Virus record (IMG/VR): IMGVR_UViG_3300042898_001863
Location: 1 to 25,984 of that record
From: a virus
Length of the DNA stretch: 25,984 nucleotides
Direction: 5' to 3' (one strand)
The notes under the pieces were generated by a model. That model had not been told where the DNA came from and did not search any database. It was given only the letters and a program-made list of their open reading frames with translations. This document shows positions 5,584 through 22,900 of the stretch, one piece after another (position 1 is the stretch's first letter; every line of letters begins with the position of its first letter). The translations under genes were made by a program, and so were the position numbers.

Positions 5584-6996
5584 TTATAGTTTCATTGCCA
5601 TTTTCATAACCTCAGGATCTGCTAGAAGCTTTTGGAACTTGGCTTTGTTGCCGTTCAAAATCTTCTTAACCATTACATACTTGAGGTCATCTGTTAAAGT
5701 GTTGTCAACTGCCAGCTTAATAAGTCTGTCAATTTGCTTTTGATAAACTGTGTTGTTTTCAGAATAGTTTATAGTGAAGTTAATTAAACGTGTTGTTAAT
5801 ACGCTTGCAATATCAGCACGATATTGAGAGCCTACACCAATACAGTTACGTAACTCACCAATAATATAATCTGTGTTATCATGTAACAAGATGTCTTTAG
5901 GACTTACTAACTTGTCAAGTTTATTGTTGATAAACGTTGTAAATATAGTAGTGAACTCTGCTCCTACAGAACCCTCACCAATCATTTGAATCAAAGGTAA
6001 GTTTGCAGAAAAGTCTGGTATAGAACTAATACAGTTGAAGAAAGTAGTAATACTTCTAGCATTCACACGAGCACTTACTAGTTCCTCATGCATCAATAAG
6101 AAGTTAATACAACGACCATCAATACCTTGTTTCTCTGCCCAACGAGCCCATACATCTTTGTCAAACTTTAAGTTTATGCTTACAAAACGAGTTCTTTGTG
6201 CTGTGTCAATAGAGTTTACTAAATACTCACCATTGTCTGGATTAGCTGTCAAGATAATGTGCCAGTCTTTTGGTAACTTCCAAGAGATATATTCTTGTCT
6301 GTCTACCAATTCCATCACAGCTTGGATGAATCTGATGTCAGCACGATTCCAGTCATCTAAGATTAAGAAACCACCGCCTTGCTTATCTGCAATCCATGAC
6401 GGAGGACAATAAGCCATCTGTTTGTTTCCGGTAAAGTTATAACCGCGCTTGATATATTCTTGAACGGCGTTCTCATCTACCCAAAGACATTCTGCTTGGT
6501 CGCTCTCTGCTGAAACTTCCTTCTCAACTTGTATTATTTCCTCAACCATTTCTTCAACTTCTACTTCTACTTGAGTTGGTACAACTACTGTTCTCATTAC
6601 AGGATTGCCATCAGCACCCATAACTTGTTTTTGTATTTGCTTGTTTTGAGTAACCATCTTCTTTACCATGGTTGGTACCATTCTTGTTTCTTCTACGGTT
6701 ATTGTTTTCATAGAAGAAGAAGTTGCATCCTTGCATAATTGGAACTGTCTGATTGGAAAACCAACCAAGTCACCTAGCTCCTCGATCTGAGCCAAATTTA
6801 ATTTTACTACACTTAGACTAGTCTCATTTGCTAATTGCAAAACAGAACTAGTCTTACCAATACCTGACTCACCTACGATCTCTACAGCTACCGGAGACTT
6901 ACCACCTTCTTGCAGATAGCGATTGTTGTTTACAATATGAGTTAAGAAGTCTTTTGCTTCATCAATGTTTAAGTTTACTTGTGCGTTTGTTGACAT
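5584..6996 (-). CDS. MoxR-family AAA+ ATPase
   Basis: A 470-residue AAA+ ATPase of the MoxR type, which normally works with a VWA-domain partner to remodel or activate a target complex. Visible motifs are Walker A GESGIGKTS (42-50), Walker B LILDDWNRAD (211-220, where the family usually reads DEINRA), sensor 1 TANP (250-253) and arginines at 268 and 270 (AQRTR) in the arginine-finger area. Between the first strands and Walker B there is a long, low-complexity insertion (about 98-168) rich in Val, Glu, Met and Lys, likely helical. The gene is one base from the VWA gene, the classic MoxR-VWA arrangement. The start at 6996 is preceded by an A/T-rich, SD-less leader. The family call is secure; the phage role is unknown. 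Confidence 0.88.
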   Translation of the reverse strand: MSTNAQVNLNIDEAKDFLTHIVNNNRYLQEGGKSPVAVEIVGESGIGKTSSVLQLANETSLSVVKLNLAQIEELGDLVGFPIRQFQLCKDATSSSMKTITVEETRMVPTMVKKMVTQNKQIQKQVMGADGNPVMRTVVVPTQVEVEVEEMVEEIIQVEKEVSAESDQAECLWVDENAVQEYIKRGYNFTGNKQMAYCPPSWIADKQGGGFLILDDWNRADIRFIQAVMELVDRQEYISWKLPKDWHIILTANPDNGEYLVNSIDTAQRTRFVSINLKFDKDVWARWAEKQGIDGRCINFLLMHEELVSARVNARSITTFFNCISSIPDFSANLPLIQMIGEGSVGAEFTTIFTTFINNKLDKLVSPKDILLHDNTDYIIGELRNCIGVGSQYRADIASVLTTRLINFTINYSENNTVYQKQIDRLIKLAVDNTLTDDLKYVMVKKILNGNKAKFQKLLADPEVMKMAMKL

Positions 6997-6997
6997 T

Positions 6998-8203
6998 TTA
7001 ATTAAGTTTAATTTGTGGACCTACTAATTTTGGGTTTAACTGGGACTGACTACTGAGTACCCAAAGCATTCTGCCCTTTGCAGGTGTAGGAGCATATGCT
7101 TCACCGTCTGTAAAATAAATCAGACAGGTATATTTGTGAATGTTTTCATTGAAATAATCTATAACCGGTTGGAAACTAGTACCACCTCTACCATGAACTT
7201 TAAAATCAGCTCTATGATTAAAGGGTCCTATGTGGTGTATAGCTGTATCAGCTTGTACTACTGTAATATCTGTGCCGGTTTTGTGTATGTGATGTAATTC
7301 ATTTACACATTCTTTAAGTTCATTGGTACTTACGGACCCTGAAGTATCAATAGCAAACAAGATGTGACGTCTAGGCTTGATCTTCAAACCTGGATTTTCT
7401 TCATATCTCTTGTTATACTTTCTTCTGGTCTTCTTAGTATAGATTTTAGTAGAGCCACCGGAAAATCTTCTAAGATAACTACGCCAGTCAAACTTAGGTG
7501 CTTCAACTGTGTTTATTCTTTGTAAGATTTCAGCAAACTCACCTGGTACACTACCACTAGATTTTTGTACTTGATCAGCAACTTCTTTTAGTATGTGCTC
7601 TGTTTGCTTTTTGATTAGTTTTTGTGTTGCTTCAGGTAGATCTTGAAAGTCTTTCCACGTACCATGATCTGGTACATTAGCTTGTTGATCTTGACCTTTT
7701 ACATTTACAACTACTGTGCATTGACCATTAGCAGAAGCCTCTAGCATTTTATCTAGATTAGGACATGTCCCTGGATTTTGCTTAGCTTTCATCAACTTGT
7801 CATAATAGTACTGAGTACCCTTCCTAGGTTCTAAGTTTAGTTCAGGAAATTTGTCTAGAGTCATACCTCCATCAGGAAGATCATTAGCATCAATGTATTG
7901 ATTGATTTCCAAATCCATTCCTATGTTTGCTATCTCATGCTCAGTCAGATGTTTAAAGTCTGTCAGATGAAAAAAGCCTATGTGCAACAACTCATGCTTG
8001 AGTAAACCTCTTTGGTGATTGCGTTTTAGTTTACTCCAAAAGTCATCATTGAGATCAAGTTGATAGTTGATACCATTTAAAGAAACTGCTGCAGTTGAAA
8101 CTTTTGTGCTCCATCTTTTATTCAGCATTATCAGAAACATCCCGTAGAATGGTTCCCTCAGGATCAAGTCCTTGACTACCCCCGCTAATTGTTCTTGCTT
8201 CAT
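6998..8203 (-). CDS. VWA-domain putative metallopeptidase (DUF2201 type)
   Basis: A 401-residue partner of the MoxR ATPase. The N-terminal half resembles the putative metallopeptidase domain DUF2201_N, with a zinc-site helix KHELLHIGFFH (H70-E71-x-x-H74). The C-terminal half is a VWA-like fold with a complete MIDAS: D286-T-S288-G-S290 in the first loop, T342 in GRGGTSF, and D366 in YFTDGE. The middle section (about 150-240) is Gln-rich and may be a linker. The family often ends in a MoxR partner gene, as here. The chosen start (8203) puts the family's conserved REPFYGMFL segment near residue 16-24 and causes an 86-base overlap with the upstream gene. Whether it cleaves proteins is unproven for this family; activity is inferred from the HExxH motif. 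Confidence 0.87.
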   Translation of the reverse strand: MKQEQLAGVVKDLILREPFYGMFLIMLNKRWSTKVSTAAVSLNGINYQLDLNDDFWSKLKRNHQRGLLKHELLHIGFFHLTDFKHLTEHEIANIGMDLEINQYIDANDLPDGGMTLDKFPELNLEPRKGTQYYYDKLMKAKQNPGTCPNLDKMLEASANGQCTVVVNVKGQDQQANVPDHGTWKDFQDLPEATQKLIKKQTEHILKEVADQVQKSSGSVPGEFAEILQRINTVEAPKFDWRSYLRRFSGGSTKIYTKKTRRKYNKRYEENPGLKIKPRRHILFAIDTSGSVSTNELKECVNELHHIHKTGTDITVVQADTAIHHIGPFNHRADFKVHGRGGTSFQPVIDYFNENIHKYTCLIYFTDGEAYAPTPAKGRMLWVLSSQSQLNPKLVGPQIKLN

Positions 8204-12216: not shown

Positions 12217-12747
12217 TTATTTTTTGTTTATTAAGTCATTCAACCACTGTTTAGTGCTGACTGGTTTATTTAAAAAAATTGCAGCCAAGTCTCTAATAGT
12301 CATCTGATCCATTGGTAAGTCTTCATTTGCATTAGGCAATATGAAAACATCTTCATCTTTTTTCTTGACATCTTTTTTGGCTTCTTTGATTAGAACTAAT
12401 TCATCTACAGGCACTAGATACCTTACGTGTCCAGTCTGTGGATGAGGATCAGTCATGTCATACTCCTCTTGAAAATGCGAATTAAAGTTCCACCTATACA
12501 GGCGTCTTTCCGTATCTTCTGGAATTAAGTCTTTACTGGTGAATTCTACGTAAACGTCTTCACCCTTGTTTATCTCACTTGCAAAAAATGCAATGTGAAG
12601 ATCTGTTTTTCCATGAGGTCTATAAGCCATCTTGGGAATAAATAATGCATCAGATACTCCATTGCTTTCAAGCGTTGGCTGATGAAATTCCCGAAGCTTG
12701 CGTAAACGCTCCTTCTTGTCTTCTGGTTTGTCTGTTGTTGATATCAT
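12217..12747 (-). CDS. Hypothetical protein between DnaB-like helicase and Sak4-like ATPase, 176 aa
   Basis: No family is recognised. The protein is soluble; a central beta-rich part (about 40-125) is followed by an acidic/lysine segment and a short helical C-terminus. The ATG overlaps the end of the helicase gene by four bases, so it is co-translated with it. A replisome accessory role is suggested only by position. Confidence 0.8.
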   Translation of the reverse strand: MISTTDKPEDKKERLRKLREFHQPTLESNGVSDALFIPKMAYRPHGKTDLHIAFFASEINKGEDVYVEFTSKDLIPEDTERRLYRWNFNSHFQEEYDMTDPHPQTGHVRYLVPVDELVLIKEAKKDVKKKDEDVFILPNANEDLPMDQMTIRDLAAIFLNKPVSTKQWLNDLINKK

Positions 12748-13742
12748 GTTCTTATTCTTTTTTCTTGTGTTGCTGGTGTTTGCATTTCTACAATTTTCAT
12801 CTTCTCAAACTCTGCTTTAAAGAAACTCATACGAGTATTTCCATTTCTGCACTTGAGGAAATGTACAACCAACACCATGTCATTATCTATTATATACCTG
12901 TCTGGTCCATAATATCTTATCTTTTGCTTACCCGGTCTGTTAATACCAACTAACATATCAGCATGCTGGAGAAGCGCATCTGCTCCAAAGAGATCTGATT
13001 CAAGAATGTAATTTCCATACTTGCCATCCTCATTTCTTTCTGGACTGTCTATGCCACGGTTTAACTGGCTTAGGATAATAAAAGCAATTGGATAGCGTCT
13101 TTTAAGACTTGTTAGTGCTTCACCTAGAGAATAGAGGCTATCATATTTGTCCTTCTCAAAGGCGTCTTTCTTCAAGAGTAAGCTGTGATCAAGTGTTACA
13201 ATTGTTTTCTTGTACATTTTTTTACCATCCTTTTCTGTTGCATGTTCATTCATGTAAGCTGCAATGATTTGTTTAAACTCAGTTACAGTACACGGTTCTT
13301 CTACAATGTCAATAGGATACTTGACTCTTTCTTGTGCATATTCATAGCACTTGTTTAGTTCTTCATTGGTCATCTTACCACCAGGCTCTGCACTACATAG
13401 ATACTTGTAAGATTTACCAAGAACACTGGAGTATTCACGGATGGCTGATGTCCTTGATAGCATTTCAAACTGGAATTCCAATACTCTAAAATCATCTCCT
13501 GCGTTAAGCTTGAAAGCCTCACGTATGATTTGATCTTTGATTAATGTCTTCCCACTGGCTGGCCTTCCTCCTATTACGGTAGTGGAATGCCATTCAATAC
13601 CATCTGTGCCCGCGTCATTCCACTTGGGCCATGGTGTTTTAATACTACGTATTTCACCCTTCATCCTACCTTGCAGATAGAGCAGGGAATCCCTGAACCC
13701 ATCGCGTTGGCTTCTCCACGCTGTTGATTTTTTGTCACTCAT
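12744..13742 (-). CDS. DnaB-like replicative helicase (RecA-like ATPase core)
   Basis: A 332-residue hexameric-type helicase expected to unwind the fork ahead of the family B polymerase. Walker A is GGRPASGKT (58-66), the classical DnaB form. Walker B is the strand ending in TIVTLDH, and the SQLNRG motif with the following ESDLFGADALLQHADM segment matches the DnaB H3 and later core. It is much shorter than cellular DnaB and lacks the N-terminal collar domain, as in many phage enzymes. A TATATTTG -7 motif lies about 50 bp upstream. The gene upstream may encode its loader. Confidence 0.87.
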   Translation of the reverse strand: MSDKKSTAWRSQRDGFRDSLLYLQGRMKGEIRSIKTPWPKWNDAGTDGIEWHSTTVIGGRPASGKTLIKDQIIREAFKLNAGDDFRVLEFQFEMLSRTSAIREYSSVLGKSYKYLCSAEPGGKMTNEELNKCYEYAQERVKYPIDIVEEPCTVTEFKQIIAAYMNEHATEKDGKKMYKKTIVTLDHSLLLKKDAFEKDKYDSLYSLGEALTSLKRRYPIAFIILSQLNRGIDSPERNEDGKYGNYILESDLFGADALLQHADMLVGINRPGKQKIRYYGPDRYIIDNDMVLVVHFLKCRNGNTRMSFFKAEFEKMKIVEMQTPATQEKRIRT

Positions 13743-13813: not shown

Positions 13814-14446
13814 TTATACTACACTTTCAGAGAAATAATTTTGATCTTGTTGAATGTCACCAGACTCAACAACAGCACACATGTTAGCTAGTTCTGAGCC
13901 CCATGATTTGTCTGATTGTTGCTTGCGGATAAAGTACTGAGAAGTTTGCATATACATGTAATTCTTTCTCTCATATTCATCTACATACATTGCTGTTGCT
14001 TTAAGTATAGTTTCCCAACTGTACTCATAGGTTTTTATAAACCATTCTAGTGCAGTTTGTACATTCTTCTTATCAGATCTTGCAGCTTTACCACTTGGTA
14101 AACGTAGTTTGGGGAAGAGAAGTATGTATGCATCTATGTTCTTCTGGTAATCATCACCCATCACAGACTTGTTCACTTTCTTTTTGTTTACTTTAAAGTG
14201 ACCATCTATGTCTTCTAAGAATGCATTTGCCTGAGAAGAAAGTTCATACTTAATACCTGTTGCATCAGTAAGATCTTTTATCCAAGAGTCTTTGACTAGA
14301 CTTCTTATTTCAGCATGCAGATTTATGTACTGAGAAGCAACACTTTCTCTTATACAACACATCAAGTAAAACTGATTTGGAGTCAGTTTTTTTTGTGCTA
14401 TCTGCATGAATACTTCCATCATCTCTAAATTATTTTTTGTACTCAT
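13814..14446 (-). CDS. Possible replisome organiser or helicase loader, 210 aa
   Basis: A 210-residue soluble protein. The N-terminal half (about 5-70) is helical and looks like a winged-helix DNA-binding segment. The C-terminal half has the pattern LFPKLRLPSGK, a W-F-I-K-T-Y block, and MQTSQYFIRKQ, which is similar to regions I associate with phage replication-initiation and loader proteins. It is the first gene of the minus-strand replication arm, directly before the DnaB-like helicase, the usual place for a loader. The identification rests on context and general pattern, not on a decisive motif; a transcription factor is possible. Confidence 0.45.
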   Translation of the reverse strand: MSTKNNLEMMEVFMQIAQKKLTPNQFYLMCCIRESVASQYINLHAEIRSLVKDSWIKDLTDATGIKYELSSQANAFLEDIDGHFKVNKKKVNKSVMGDDYQKNIDAYILLFPKLRLPSGKAARSDKKNVQTALEWFIKTYEYSWETILKATAMYVDEYERKNYMYMQTSQYFIRKQQSDKSWGSELANMCAVVESGDIQQDQNYFSESVV

Positions 14447-14498
14447 GCTTTGTATTGTGGATTATTTTTTGTATATTAAAAGTATAGATTTAAAGTTT
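14447..14498. promoter_or_regulatory. Divergent promoter region between replication arm and spanin-like genes
   Basis: The only 52 bp separating a minus-strand start (14446) from a plus-strand start (14499) must hold promoters for both directions unless one gene is reached by read-through. Weak TAnnTTTA matches occur back to back: TAGATTTA on plus (14485-14492) and TACTTTTA on minus (14484-14477). Neither has a well-spaced -33 box, and both sites end only a few bases from a start or overlap each other. Confidence 0.4.
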
Positions 14499-14831
14499 AT
14501 GTCAAGAGCTTCATTTGTAACTTACTGTGTATTAGTCATAATAATTTTAGTACTGTCAGCATTAGTTGTATTCCGTAACAGTCAAGTTGCTGATTATGCC
14601 AGTGAAGAAAGAGCTTTAAAGGATTCCATATTAACTCTCTCTGTTAAGATTGACTCAAGTCATGCTAGACAACAAAGACTTGAGCGTCAACTAGATGGAT
14701 TATCTACAATAGAATCACAAGTAATAACTAAAACACATGATAAAATCAATTTTATTTACAGCGTTGCTACTCCTGATGAGCTCGATTCAATTATCCGGTC
14801 AAACTGGAAAACCAAATCAAGATACAATTAA
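14499..14831 (+). CDS. Rz-like membrane protein (putative inner-membrane spanin)
   Basis: A 110-residue protein with an N-terminal transmembrane anchor (about 6-25) followed by a charged, coiled-coil-prone periplasmic part (35-80) and a short polar C-terminus. That layout is the one expected of an i-spanin, which joins inner and outer membranes at the end of lysis. I start it at 14499 rather than at the earlier in-frame ATG at 14406, because the earlier start lies inside the opposite-strand gene and adds a second hydrophobic stretch. The next gene starts inside its 3' end in another frame, the typical Rz/Rz1 overlap. Sequence similarity to named Rz proteins is not obvious. Confidence 0.6.
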   Translation: MSRASFVTYCVLVIIILVLSALVVFRNSQVADYASEERALKDSILTLSVKIDSSHARQQRLERQLDGLSTIESQVITKTHDKINFIYSVATPDELDSIIRSNWKTKSRYN

Positions 14832-15147
14832 GTGTTATGGAGTCACAGAACTCAAGAACATAGCTACAAGTATTGTAGAAGGAAAAACCTGTGATACTCT
14901 TTTGTCTGTTTCCAAATTAAAACTTCAGCTGAAAGACACTATAATTACAGAAAAGAACATTGAGATTGAAAATCTTAATAAGATCAGTGCCTTCAAAGAT
15001 CAGATCATTACCCGCAAAGAGAATGACATTGAAGCCTTGAATAAAAGCTTAGCTTCTGAAATCAAAAAGCATAAGTGGACCAAATATGGATGGGCTGCTA
15101 CAGCTACAATCCTTGGAACATTTGCGTTGCTTTTTGCTCTACGGTAA
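14737..15147 (+). CDS. Secreted coiled-coil protein with C-terminal membrane segment (spanin partner candidate)
   Basis: A 136-residue protein with a signal peptide (about 1-21, ending SGQ), a long coiled-coil-prone region (about 58-110) and a C-terminal transmembrane segment (about 118-135). Cysteines at 33 and 52 could form a disulfide. It resembles the small secreted coiled-coil proteins that sit beside Rz-like genes in Bacteroidota phages. There is no lipobox cysteine at the signal cleavage site, so it is not a classical outer-membrane o-spanin. The 95-base overlap with the gene before it, in another frame, supports a joint lysis role. It ends one base before the convergent glycosylase gene. 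Confidence 0.65.
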   Translation: MIKSILFTALLLLMSSIQLSGQTGKPNQDTIKCYGVTELKNIATSIVEGKTCDTLLSVSKLKLQLKDTIITEKNIEIENLNKISAFKDQIITRKENDIEALNKSLASEIKKHKWTKYGWAATATILGTFALLFALR

Positions 15148-15148
15148 T

Positions 15149-15865
15149 CTACCACACTATCTTTTCATTGAATTGCTTTTTTACAGCTTCAGAGATCTTG
15201 TTATACATGTCTCCTGAATCCCATTTTTCTAACTGAAAATGAGCAGCAGAAGCCGGATGACTTGTAAAGATCTTAAAGTTATTATCTGGTACACTATCTG
15301 CCCACTCTTGTGCTTTCTTACCCATGAATACATAAACTGTACCTGGATTATTGTACATAAGAACATCAAATACAAATGCTAGGAATGGTTGCCACAGTTT
15401 ATAATGAGAACCAACTTTTCCTATTGTTGTTGTGAGAGCACAATTAAGCATTAATATACCTTGATTAGACCATTTCTTAAGATCTGGATCCCATGTGAAC
15501 CCATCCTTGTAAACTGTATCTTCTAATTCTTTGTACATAAACTTCAGTGAAGCCTCAATTTTACCTAGGTTACTACATGAAAATGCTATACCGTCAGCAC
15601 AATTTATATGAGGGTACGGGTCTTGCCCAATTATAACTACTTTTAAATCTTTGTATGGACATTCCTCAAACGCCCTGAACAATTGCTTTACAACCGGAGT
15701 AAACCGGTTACCTTGCTTTGCTTCTTTGAGTAATTGCCTTAATATAATATCAAAGTCTTCACTCATGATAAACGTTTTAAGCTTATCACCCCAGCCAGAT
15801 GGCTTGAGTTTTTCATAAAGTTTAAGCTTTATGTCATCTAAATCTACAGTGTTTAATACGCTCAT
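15149..15865 (-). CDS. ung: Uracil-DNA glycosylase (family 1)
   Basis: A 238-residue family 1 uracil-DNA glycosylase, which removes uracil from DNA. Motif 1 is GQDPYP (80-85), with catalytic Asp82 and a Pro where many enzymes have His, followed by DGIAFS (91-96). The uracil-binding segment is LMLNCALT (138-145) with N141, then GSHYKLWQPF (152-161). The DNA-intercalation loop is HPASAAHF (203-210), against HPSPLS in the classical family. Length is normal for the family. The gene stands alone on the minus strand between two plus-strand units, and ends one base from the convergent spanin-like gene, so it presumably has its own promoter. Confidence 0.95.
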   Translation of the reverse strand: MSVLNTVDLDDIKLKLYEKLKPSGWGDKLKTFIMSEDFDIILRQLLKEAKQGNRFTPVVKQLFRAFEECPYKDLKVVIIGQDPYPHINCADGIAFSCSNLGKIEASLKFMYKELEDTVYKDGFTWDPDLKKWSNQGILMLNCALTTTIGKVGSHYKLWQPFLAFVFDVLMYNNPGTVYVFMGKKAQEWADSVPDNNFKIFTSHPASAAHFQLEKWDSGDMYNKISEAVKKQFNEKIVW

Positions 15866-15907: not shown

Positions 15908-16237
15908 ATGGAAAATTCAGAACCAAAAAAACCAGATACTTTAGTACATCCAATGATTAATCCTGAGGCCATAATCAAGATTGAGGTATCAGAATTTTAT
16001 CTTAGACGTTGCCAAAAGCTTTTAATTGCTTTGGCTGGTCAAATGGGTAATGAAAAGTTTATTGAAGCTATCAAAAAACTTGAGGAGGATAAACCTCTAG
16101 AAACCTTTGAGGAAGCTATTCTTGATGTTGTACTACCTCTTGTAGATACAATAGAAAGAGCAGCAAAAGAACAAGGGTTTGTAGAAGAAAGACCATTTAC
16201 TCCAGAAGAGATGATGAAAATCTATGAGGCTATCTAA
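15908..16237 (+). CDS. Hypothetical phage protein on the plus strand, 109 aa
   Basis: A 109-residue helical, acidic protein. The core (IIKIEVSEFYLRR, then a helix-rich section and IERAAKEQGF) resembles a small family I recall from Bacteroidota phages, with no known function. It is the only plus-strand gene between two minus-strand blocks and ends by overlapping the next minus-strand gene by eight bases, tail to tail. I start it at 15908; an in-frame TTG upstream adds an implausible hydrophobic leader, and 15953 is an alternative ATG. Confidence 0.75.
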   Translation: MENSEPKKPDTLVHPMINPEAIIKIEVSEFYLRRCQKLLIALAGQMGNEKFIEAIKKLEEDKPLETFEEAILDVVLPLVDTIERAAKEQGFVEERPFTPEEMMKIYEAI

Positions 16238-16637
16238 AGTTCAGCCCCACTAAATCTCCTGCGTCAATAATAGATTCAATTACACTGCTCAATTCTTCCT
16301 TGGAACAATCTGCTAAACTTTTACAATATAATATTTTTTCATTGTTGTAGTTTGTAACAAAGCATAAACCTGCAGCCTTTTTAATTTCAAACTTTAATTC
16401 TGATACTGTATGACCAGTACTTCTTGCTAGTTCTGCTAGACAAGCATGTATCTTGGCCAGCTGATCTAAAGTGCCGTCATCTTTGTTTGCTTCCATGAAG
16501 ATGTTTACAGTTTGATCTAGGACAAGACCAGCCAAGAAAGCTTCATACTTAGCTTTACTTGATGCTACAGGAGAAAGCTTACCGCCCTCACCTTTAATAA
16601 ACTTGCCATGAAAAATGTTATACTTTTGTTTGCTCAT
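16230..16637 (-). CDS. Conserved phage protein, 135 aa, possibly NinB-like
   Basis: A 135-residue soluble protein. The pattern EANKDDGTLDQLAKIHACL, followed by LARSTGHT and KSLADCSKEEL, is one I associate with a small family frequent in Bacteroidota phages and sometimes labelled NinB-like recombination protein. I cannot confirm the NinB link from motifs. It opens near the 3' end of the accessory block, overlaps the 67-residue gene by four bases (ATGA) and converges on the plus-strand gene with an eight-base overlap. Confidence 0.75.
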   Translation of the reverse strand: MSKQKYNIFHGKFIKGEGGKLSPVASSKAKYEAFLAGLVLDQTVNIFMEANKDDGTLDQLAKIHACLAELARSTGHTVSELKFEIKKAAGLCFVTNYNNEKILYCKSLADCSKEELSSVIESIIDAGDLVGLNFR

Positions 16638-16837
16638 AACTTTTCTATTTCTTGTTTAACTTCTTGCCAATATTCTTCATGCCCGTATATATAGTTGTCT
16701 TCTAAAATAGGATACATAGTTATTGATTTTATCTGCAATATCTCATCAACTGCTATTAATGCACATTGTTTTGCTTCATTCCAAGACCATATAGCATACT
16801 TTTCTACTAATTCTTTTGCTTTGTCTTTTGGTGTCAT
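16634..16837 (-). CDS. Small conserved phage protein, 67 aa
   Basis: A 67-residue protein of a type common in Bacteroidota phages: MTPKDKAKELVEKY at the start, AKQCALIAVDEI in the middle, and a YWQEVKQEI tail. It is helical and soluble. Function unknown. It is placed directly after the ClpS gene (one base gap) and coupled by ATGA to the next gene. Confidence 0.78.
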   Translation of the reverse strand: MTPKDKAKELVEKYAIWSWNEAKQCALIAVDEILQIKSITMYPILEDNYIYGHEEYWQEVKQEIEKL

Positions 16838-16838
16838 A

Positions 16839-17120
16839 CTATTCTATTTTAGCTGTGAGACCTTGCTCTAGCAAAGCTTCACATACCGGTTTAAGTTTAT
16901 CATAAGAGCCGTGCTTTACGTCACACTTACCATTATGGTGTACCAGAAGAGCACATTGTTCAGCCTGGATTGGGTTGTGATCACAATACTTTAGCAAGCA
17001 ATTAATTACATGATCAAAAGTATTGTAGTCATCATTGTAAAGTATGATGACTTTTGTTTTTTCTGTGACCTCTTTTATAAGGACATCTAATTCTTCTTCT
17101 ATGCCTGGTTCAAATATCAT
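16839..17120 (-). CDS. clpS: ClpS-like N-degron adaptor
   Basis: A 93-residue protein with the ClpS fold signature. ClpS adaptors deliver proteins with destabilising N-terminal residues to ClpAP or ClpCP. Seen here: the substrate-pocket motif N29-D30-D31-Y32 followed by NTFDHVINCL, the conserved AEQCALLVHHNGKC block (H61 in the position that contacts the N-degron amino group), and the closing LLEQGLTAKIE strand. The NTFDHVI and GKC-x-V forms are those I recall from Bacteroidota ClpS proteins rather than from E. coli. The N-terminal extension (1-22) is acidic and short, as in host versions. It overlaps the gene upstream by 11 bases and is one base from the gene downstream. This family is normally cellular, so acquisition from a host is likely. 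Confidence 0.9.
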   Translation of the reverse strand: MIFEPGIEEELDVLIKEVTEKTKVIILYNDDYNTFDHVINCLLKYCDHNPIQAEQCALLVHHNGKCDVKHGSYDKLKPVCEALLEQGLTAKIE

Positions 17121-17355
17121 CTGCCTTGTTATAAAAGTTCAACCATTTGTCTCTTTCTTCTATGGCTTCTAGCCTAGGTTTATCTATTTCTATTATAGAC
17201 TCACCACAAAGACCAAGATCAGTATCTATTTCTTCTAATAGCCTGCCTAGGTCTCTAAGTTTTTTCATCTGAGTACCTGATATCCAAGACGCTCCTGAGC
17301 TAACTTCATTAAGAACATGTCTCTGTTCTGCAAGTTTCTTTAAATTAATTTTCAT
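17110..17355 (-). CDS. Small hypothetical coiled-coil protein, 81 aa
   Basis: A helical, charged protein (KKLAEQRHVLNEV, then KLRDLGRLLEEID) without a recognised domain. I start it at the ATG at 17355; an ATG six codons earlier exists but lies inside the end of the preceding gene. It overlaps that gene by 11 bases and the ClpS gene by 11 bases, so it is translated as part of the same set. Whether it relates to ClpS is unknown. Confidence 0.68.
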   Translation of the reverse strand: MKINLKKLAEQRHVLNEVSSGASWISGTQMKKLRDLGRLLEEIDTDLGLCGESIIEIDKPRLEAIEERDKWLNFYNKADDI

Positions 17356-17560
17356 CTCCAAATAATTTGTCAAACATTGTGTGATTCCAGCACAGTTTTA
17401 CCTGGCTGCTATTATAGTGTTTAATTTCACGGGTCTTCTCATTGCAGACTACCCAGATTGTGTTCTCATGTGGACCATAGTCCATCAAGAATAACACTTG
17501 GCCATCGCCATGTGGGGTTTCCACCCACAATACTTGCTGTACTTCATGTATTGCCGTCAT
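17345..17560 (-). CDS. Conserved small phage protein, 71 aa
   Basis: A beta-rich 71-residue protein of a type widespread in Bacteroidota phages: EVQQVLWVETPHGDGQVLFL, then a DYGPHENTIWVV block and a KHYNSSQVKL segment. Function unknown. The sequence looks like a small SH3-like barrel, but that is only an impression. It overlaps its neighbours at both ends. Confidence 0.75.
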   Translation of the reverse strand: MTAIHEVQQVLWVETPHGDGQVLFLMDYGPHENTIWVVCNEKTREIKHYNSSQVKLCWNHTMFDKLFGDEN

Positions 17561-21814: not shown

Positions 21815-22900
21815 TTAATCTTGCACATATTCAATCTTACTTTGGTCAAATCCTTCTAGTGCAGACTTAACCCAGTACTCATCTATGGTATCTTTGTAAC
21901 AGAGAATGTGTATACATGATTCTTCATTTGGATTGAGACGGAGCAATCGGCCTATACGCTGACTTGACTTGCGTTCATTTCCGTATGCGTGCATGATTAT
22001 ACCTTGCTTTAGGTTGGGTATGTTTACACCTTCACTTAATTGAAGTACAGCAGATAGCTTTTTAATTTTACCTTCCTTGAATGCTTTAAGATTTTCTTCA
22101 GAGAGTGCGTTTTTGCTGTGATAACTATGAGCGCATAGTTTGTCAGCTTGCTCCTGTGTATTAGCAAATAGAATTACTTTATCTGTTATAGAGCTCATTA
22201 GTTTTTTGGCTAGTCTTTCTTTGCTTGGGAAATCCATTAGCGCTTTCATTCTCATGACTCTCATGATTTGTAGTTCTTTTGCTCCATATGCAGAGTCTAC
22301 TCTGTCCGTCCAATATGCATAAGACTGTTGTTCAGATGAAAACCATTCTTTGTTTTTTGATTTCATTTTCAGTGTCTTCATTGCATCTAGTGGAATCTTG
22401 TGTACTATGATCTTATAGTCATTTAAGATTTTGTCTTCTATGGCTTCATCTGTCTGGTACGTATACATTATAGGACAAAACTGGTCTACCATCTTTCCCT
22501 TCTGGGATGATTTAAACTTTGGTGGTGTACCTGTTAATCCTACAATCTTACCTTTATATCCTCTTAACCACTCTGCGTGGGTGTATAGAAGAGAGTGGCA
22601 TTCATCCAAGTATATTACATCATACATGTAAATTTGCTTTGACAAAGACAAATACGTTGTAAAGTCCATGTGACTTGTTAGATGAGATAGTCCATGCTCT
22701 TTAGCTTGACTTTTCCACTCTTCAAATATAGATGTCTTTGGTGCAACTACTAGGAACATTGCATCTGGATCCCAATGATGGTCCATATGTTTTAGTCCTA
22801 CTAAAGTCTTACCACCACCCATTGTTATTCCTACACCTGCGCGATGATTGGGTATGAGTATATCCAGAGCTTCTTTTTGTATTTGGTCTCTAGTCTTCAT
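21815..22900 (-). CDS. SF2 DNA helicase/ATPase
   Basis: A 361-residue SF2 helicase core. Motif I (Walker A) is MGGGKT (27-32), motif Ia is VAPKT (52-56), motif II is YLDECH (97-102), motif III is TGTPP (123-127), and motif VI is SQRIGRLLRLNP near residue 320. The DECH box and the compact two-domain size resemble phage helicases of the T4 UvsW or SNF2-like recombination/repair class. It lies among small accessory genes and overlaps the gene before it by ATGA. It is distinct from the replicative helicase and more likely serves fork rescue, recombination or transcription-related functions. Confidence 0.9.
   Translation of the reverse strand: MKTRDQIQKEALDILIPNHRAGVGITMGGGKTLVGLKHMDHHWDPDAMFLVVAPKTSIFEEWKSQAKEHGLSHLTSHMDFTTYLSLSKQIYMYDVIYLDECHSLLYTHAEWLRGYKGKIVGLTGTPPKFKSSQKGKMVDQFCPIMYTYQTDEAIEDKILNDYKIIVHKIPLDAMKTLKMKSKNKEWFSSEQQSYAYWTDRVDSAYGAKELQIMRVMRMKALMDFPSKERLAKKLMSSITDKVILFANTQEQADKLCAHSYHSKNALSEENLKAFKEGKIKKLSAVLQLSEGVNIPNLKQGIIMHAYGNERKSSQRIGRLLRLNPNEESCIHILCYKDTIDEYWVKSALEGFDQSKIEYVQD

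Follow-up and report, generated by a model that had tools for sequence, protein, structure and literature searches.

Several jumbo phages encode ClpS, which likely brings targets to host ClpAP (Iyer et al. 2021, PMC7824862); Atu_ph07 also encodes ClpS (gp708; PMC6102473), and viral entries named ClpS are present in BFVD. Here we analyzed a clpS gene at positions 16839–17120 (minus strand) of IMG/VR record IMGVR_UViG_3300042898_001863, the whole of which, a linear stretch of 25,984 bases, is called the window below. The initial annotation treated ClpS as normally a host gene. A phage copy is no surprise in itself, however, since jumbo phages are already known to encode ClpS, for which the same role has been suggested. 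The ClpS of jumbo and huge phages (AMM43882.1; Atu_ph07 gp708; LR756504, LR745206, and LR756502) is likewise phage-encoded and has the same proposed role on host Clp, but these phages exceed 200 kb and several have their own ClpP (one to three copies), whereas the crAss-like group described below has ClpS alone. Unlike this group, Atu_ph07 has its own ClpA/ClpX (PMC6102473). As far as we found, proposals that phages exploit the bacterial N-degron pathway have so far come from annotation only. A tested phage-encoded proteolysis adaptor is cyanophage NblA, whose heterologous expression led to phycobilisome loss (PMC9602691). NblA is comparable to the adaptor proposed here in being phage-encoded and acting on proteolysis, but the two proteins are unrelated, and NblA has one specific substrate, which is known, and a cyanobacterial host. 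What appears to be new is the conserved place of clpS in crAss-like phages, together with a monophyletic subclade of ClpS lacking the N-terminal extension (NTE); no paper pairing crAss-like phages with ClpS was found in a search of mainly open-access literature.

The 93-residue product of the window gene matched the Pfam profile PF02617 (ClpS) with 65.1 bits (E = 5e-18; cut-off, 23). The NCBIfam ClpS equivalog cut-off was not reached (best 41 bits versus 117), which counts only against placement in the subfamilies concerned, whose models look narrow (PRK subsets). The AlphaFold2 model, for which 33 related sequences were the input, had a mean predicted local distance difference test score (pLDDT) of 86.7, with values above 90 in the core and 54–60 in residues 1–20. 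In a Foldseek search of the PDB, this model matched ClpS with a TM-score of 0.91 (normalized on the target). The first 38 matches were ClpS of M. smegmatis, E. coli, Caulobacter, plants, and others (best E about 1e-6), while the L7/L12 C-terminal fold reached an E-value of only 9e-3 in the same ranking. A chance or misassigned open reading frame is ruled out by the Pfam score and the Foldseek ranking, and an L7/L12-type fold by the ranking. The assignment to ClpS made in the initial annotation was thus borne out, and both the model and the trees described below place the protein in ClpS.

The residues listed in the initial annotation were also correct. In the alignment to E. coli ClpS, the pocket motif N29-D30-D31-Y32-N33-T34-F35-D36-H37-V38 (17007–17036; all features of the window lie on the minus strand unless stated otherwise) corresponds to N34–V43. 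The second pocket helix A53–H61 (16938–16964) belongs to the block A53–C66, AEQCALLVHHNGKC, and the closing stretch L83–E93 is LLEQGLTAKIE. N29, D30, D31, and H61 are equivalent to N34, D35, D36, and H66 of E. coli ClpS, and the residues of the N-degron pocket are all present. In established ClpS structures, the histidine equivalent to H66 binds the α-amino group of the substrate. N29 and D30 were found in all 80 unique phage ClpS and F35 in 78 of them, and H61 was kept in 79/80 phage and 103/105 bacterial ClpS. The NTE (residues 1–22; 17055–17120) has low pLDDT and a helix predicted with low confidence at residues 5–19; by analogy, this arm would be expected to insert into the pore of the unfoldase. 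Its length is similar to that in Bacteroidota host ClpS, where 24–39 residues precede the NDD motif in 102 of 105 proteins; the core of E. coli ClpS begins at residue 27 (PMC9663308). Window ClpS and E. coli ClpS are alike in fold, NDD motif, H66 equivalent, and arrangement of NTE and core, at an identity of about 20–28%.

In a tree with Bacteroidota ClpS, the comparison proposed in the initial annotation, the window protein was placed among the latter. The nearest cellular ClpS were nearly all from Bacteroidota, apart from one record labelled Chlorobiota and some whose title said no more than "bacterium". Bacteroidota host ClpS (Flavobacteriales, Chitinophagaceae, and others) showed 51–71% identity to window ClpS over the matched part and had the same pocket (NDDYNTFDHVI, QAEQC, and H) and the same NTE length. 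The window copy differs from them in being phage-borne, in lying in a replication module, and in forming its own clade with those of the related loci L001 and L114 (support 95/95) in a wide tree of 54 phage and 60 bacterial sequences (91 columns). Phage and bacterial labels switched at least four times on well-supported branches of this tree, contradicting a single origin of the phage ClpS, while a single origin within the crAss-like group was not rejected (approximately unbiased test, p = 0.30). The deeper forks of the 91-column tree are without resolution, and the donor cannot be named from it. On these sequence comparisons, the window gene is best described as a phage ClpS of probable Bacteroidota origin. 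The ClpS region of L168 (MT835505), a GenBank entry titled "Bacteriophage sp.", resembles GC-rich bacterial DNA; this match was dropped as probably mislabelled.

The gene content of the window (PolB, exonuclease, MoxR-like, vWA-like, primase, Sak4, DnaB, uracil-DNA glycosylase [UDG], helicase, ParB-like, and HNH) is that of a phage replication module. PolB, DnaB, primase, UDG, Sak4, and MoxR/vWA genes surround clpS, confirming that it is phage-encoded. Annotated crAss-like phages matched the window DnaB and UDG, and primase, Sak4, and MoxR/vWA were also related to those of annotated crAss phages; the replication genes and their order are shared with Crassvirales, and cr10_1 has the same module. 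The record is probably a fragment of a larger genome, and the crAss major capsid gene would fall outside its 26 kb; the capsid evidence therefore comes from syntenic contigs. A terminase, a portal, and the crAss capsid protein were all encoded on a 122-kb sister contig with clpS in the same context. Of 25 large ClpS-bearing records, six had a crAss capsid (G146, G148, G151, G153, G155, and G161), all six with the helicase–clpS arrangement; the second large group with ClpS comprised huge phages of up to 642 kb. Because of the shared replication module and the syntenic contigs with a Crassvirales capsid, the window very probably derives from an environmental crAss-like phage of Bacteroidota, the phylum that this group infects by every indirect sign. 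Gut Crassvirales such as cr10_1 share the exonuclease, primase, MoxR-like, vWA-like, Sak4-like, and DnaB genes with the window, and ClpS was not found in the gut crAss records of the phage collection. The gut crAss-like phage cr10_1 (L213, NC_055875) has its own transfer-messenger RNA (tmRNA, ssrA; 26352–26737) where environmental relatives have ClpS; tmRNA is another route into Clp proteolysis.

In loci found through ClpS itself, clpS lay between the helicase and NinB–UDG–DnaB. To avoid circularity, we used a scan anchored on UDG and blind to ClpS. clpS was present in the same direction in 22 of the 30 loci spanning helicase to UDG, including about four near-duplicates, and the lineage with clpS at this place has diverged to about 50% identity in UDG. 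clpS is thus a recurrent, positionally conserved gene of the crAss-like lineage. The earlier description of the gene as sitting among small accessory genes holds locally but misses this conservation. Between the window and L001, clpS showed a nonsynonymous divergence (dN) of 0.16 and a synonymous divergence (dS) of 1.04, and the group median dN/dS was 0.32 by simple Nei–Gojobori counts, which are rough; clpS is under purifying selection. In the same pair, the core of the gene (16908–17051) had 65% nucleotide identity and its two ends 88–91%, hinting that the peptide-binding core may have been swapped between alleles by intragenic recombination. We keep this only as a hint because other genes have nearly as divergent stretches (synonymous divergence in windows up to 0.85, versus 0.86–0.90 in clpS).

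Neither a Clp N-domain protein nor an L/F-transferase was found in 23 large phage records with ClpS. ClpP was present in nine of these records, mainly megaphages, and none of the nine was in the crAss-capsid group. In the six crAss-capsid contigs with ClpS, which are possibly incomplete, no ClpP, Clp N-domain protein, or L/F-transferase was found. Because these partners were not found in the crAss-like contigs, it is most likely the unfoldase of the host on which the phage adaptor acts. On the host side, ClpS was found in 116 of the 118 genomes sampled from one phylum and in 54 of 80 genomes of an order holding a Bacteroidales genome; host genomes are often drafts, and absences are weak. Near-kin genomes had Clp N-domain proteins (15/16) and L/F-transferase (8/16), the Clp N-domain model also matching ClpB, so that its hits do not tell ClpA from ClpC as the partner. 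With a conserved single-gene adaptor and no Clp enzymes of the phage found in the crAss-like contigs, only a single protein and its action on the host machinery need be considered. Control of protein turnover would thereby join the host-takeover themes already known in this major group of phages of Bacteroidota. Three megaphages with ClpS, LR756504 (W01), LR756502 (W03), and G149, lacked Clp N-domain proteins and had as many as three genes for ClpP-like proteins. An in-frame TGA was present in two of these ClpP-like reading frames (W01, 146269–146691; G149, 231742–232164).

We consider it likely that the window protein, which came from Bacteroidota and became fixed in a crAss-like phage lineage, delivers N-degron proteins to a host ClpA/ClpC-type unfoldase and ClpP. 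Direct support from the sequence and the model lies in the family, the fold, the pocket residues, the NTE, the conservation in the lineage, the purifying selection, and the lack of a phage unfoldase in the records examined. The steps from N-degron binding, docking, and NTE pulling to delivery, timing, and benefit we infer as follows. The clpS gene appears to have become fixed within the replication/early region in this lineage of environmental crAss-like phages. The pocket would bind proteins starting with a bulky hydrophobic residue (N-degrons), and the ClpS core would dock on the host unfoldase, of the ClpA/ClpC type, at the N-domain of the latter, as in established ClpS biochemistry. The NTE would enter the pore and be pulled by the unfoldase, and the N-degron protein would be handed over and degraded by host ClpP; this delivery mechanism is taken from PMC9663308. 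Many adaptor copies could shift the host protease to N-degron substrates and away from other clients during infection.

Several points weigh against delivery by the window protein. clpS is not essential because the close relatives L218, L229, and L277 are without it; it was also lost or absent in L280, L284, and L286. The window is a 26-kb fragment, and the rest of the genome could hold Clp parts. F35 and A57 take the places of the E. coli gate residue M40 and of M62, and the preferred N-terminal residue may differ. F35 and A57 are, as far as the alignments indicate, host-clade traits, because Bacteroidota ClpS have F at the gate in 103/105 cases and A, T, or S at the M62-equivalent place. Finally, the junction prolines, tandem in E. 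coli ClpS, are missing from window ClpS.

Most of the 80 unique phage ClpS had at least 22 residues before NDD and were host-like in this respect. In contrast, only 10–12 residues preceded NDD in L237, L240, L242, L245, L249, L250, L254, L263, L274, and probably L266. These NTE-less genes (start positions: L237, 3870; L240, 2998; L242, 1756; L245, 4350; L249, 2627; L250, 2259; L254, 2545; L263, 1630; and L274, 2671) occupied the same locus. Their start codon lay 4–29 nucleotides past the helicase stop, and therefore no upstream start could supply an extension. The NTE-less forms made up one clade (98/96) in a tree of the ClpS core alone, and in the UDG tree the NTE-less group clustered within the lineage. 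They scored as ClpS (33–56 bits), and the L249 model was a ClpS with a pLDDT of 92. N29 and D30 were kept in all of them, D31 was replaced by N in some, and H61 was replaced by N in L250; a short C-terminal tail (YES/YEG..H/Y) was common to most. In E. coli, keeping the NTE out of the pore inhibits delivery (PMC9663308), and NTE removal stabilizes ClpS in the cell (PMC12974527). Because the unfoldase pulls on the NTE, the NTE-less forms are predicted, by analogy with E. coli, to be blockers that capture N-degron proteins without delivering them, and the window form is predicted to be a true adaptor. The E. coli rules for the NTE may not hold for the Bacteroidota unfoldase. We tentatively propose, as a possibility that we think somewhat improbable, a functional split at the clpS locus, in which full-length forms would deliver whereas NTE-less forms would dock and capture without hand-over, shutting down the host N-degron pathway. 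If true, an adaptor would here have given rise to a natural anti-adaptor of phages. The NTE-less ClpS are accordingly only candidate natural anti-adaptors, and the presence of full-length and NTE-less versions at one locus makes adaptor versus blocker directly testable.

Blocking could also be the role of window ClpS itself, which would then flood the host unfoldase and shield proteins of the phage, such as ssrA-tagged or regulatory clients, from degradation, with N-degron delivery secondary. The sister phages that keep the ClpS fold and pocket without the NTE at the same locus fit blocking in that clade, but window ClpS has a full NTE and a host-like pocket, whereas for blocking alone the NTE and some of the pocket residues would be dispensable; we judge this role doubtful for the window protein. 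The initial annotation had taken the intact pocket as favouring an active adaptor over a decoy. That argument fails because the NTE-less relatives mostly keep the pocket too. The NTE may be what separates the two, and the full-length NTE of the window copy is the better argument for an adaptor.

Delivery to host Clp was also weighed against explanations without a Clp function. Repurposing of a ClpS-fold protein for a non-Clp role, as for L7/L12 C-terminal domains in other phages, draws on the fold shared with those domains and on the existence of such phage proteins, crAss phages included. It is nonetheless very improbable, given that ClpS outranked L7/L12 by almost four orders of magnitude in E-value and that the α-amino-binding residues N29, D30, and H61 are conserved. 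The scatter of phage ClpS among Bacteroidota ClpS, indicating several transfers, would suit a selfish or neutral host gene, recently acquired and useless to the phage, but the conserved place in a lineage diverged to this extent in UDG, a dN/dS well below 1, and the lack of host flanking genes make this, if anything, slightly more improbable still. Contamination by host chromosome or misassembly is scarcely credible, with same-strand phage genes on both sides of clpS and the same arrangement in many independent contigs.

In the window, the first 11 nucleotides of clpS, start codon included, are also the last 11 of the upstream gene (17110–17373; 87 residues, no assigned function), as in a translationally coupled operon; this gene adjoins clpS in L001 too (90% identity). 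Downstream lies a gene of phrog_21441 with no assigned function (16634–16837), which is not at this place in L001. A NinB/Orf-like recombination mediator follows (16230–16637; phrog_72; sub-threshold Pfam NinB match of 20.4 bits) and is the conserved downstream neighbour, in the order clpS–NinB–UDG. The UDG gene (15149–15865) has annotated homologues in Crassvirales, and the best annotated phage matches of the DnaB-like helicase (12744–13742) were crAss-like phages. In the conserved order, clpS is preceded by a DNA helicase gene (21815–22900; phrog_16), which is 4.7 kb away in the window and close upstream in most relatives. An Rfam search of the window gave no match, PADLOC found nothing of weight near clpS linking it to defence systems, and a promoter scan found fewer sites than in shuffles. 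At 14406–15147 on the plus strand, opposed to the general direction, two overlapping genes with apparent membrane segments are kept in L001 (80–86%) and could, from their sequences, be a lysis or envelope pair. A MoxR-like ATPase gene stands beside that of a vWA-like protein at 5584–8203 (minus strand), apparently as in Crassvirales cr10_1.
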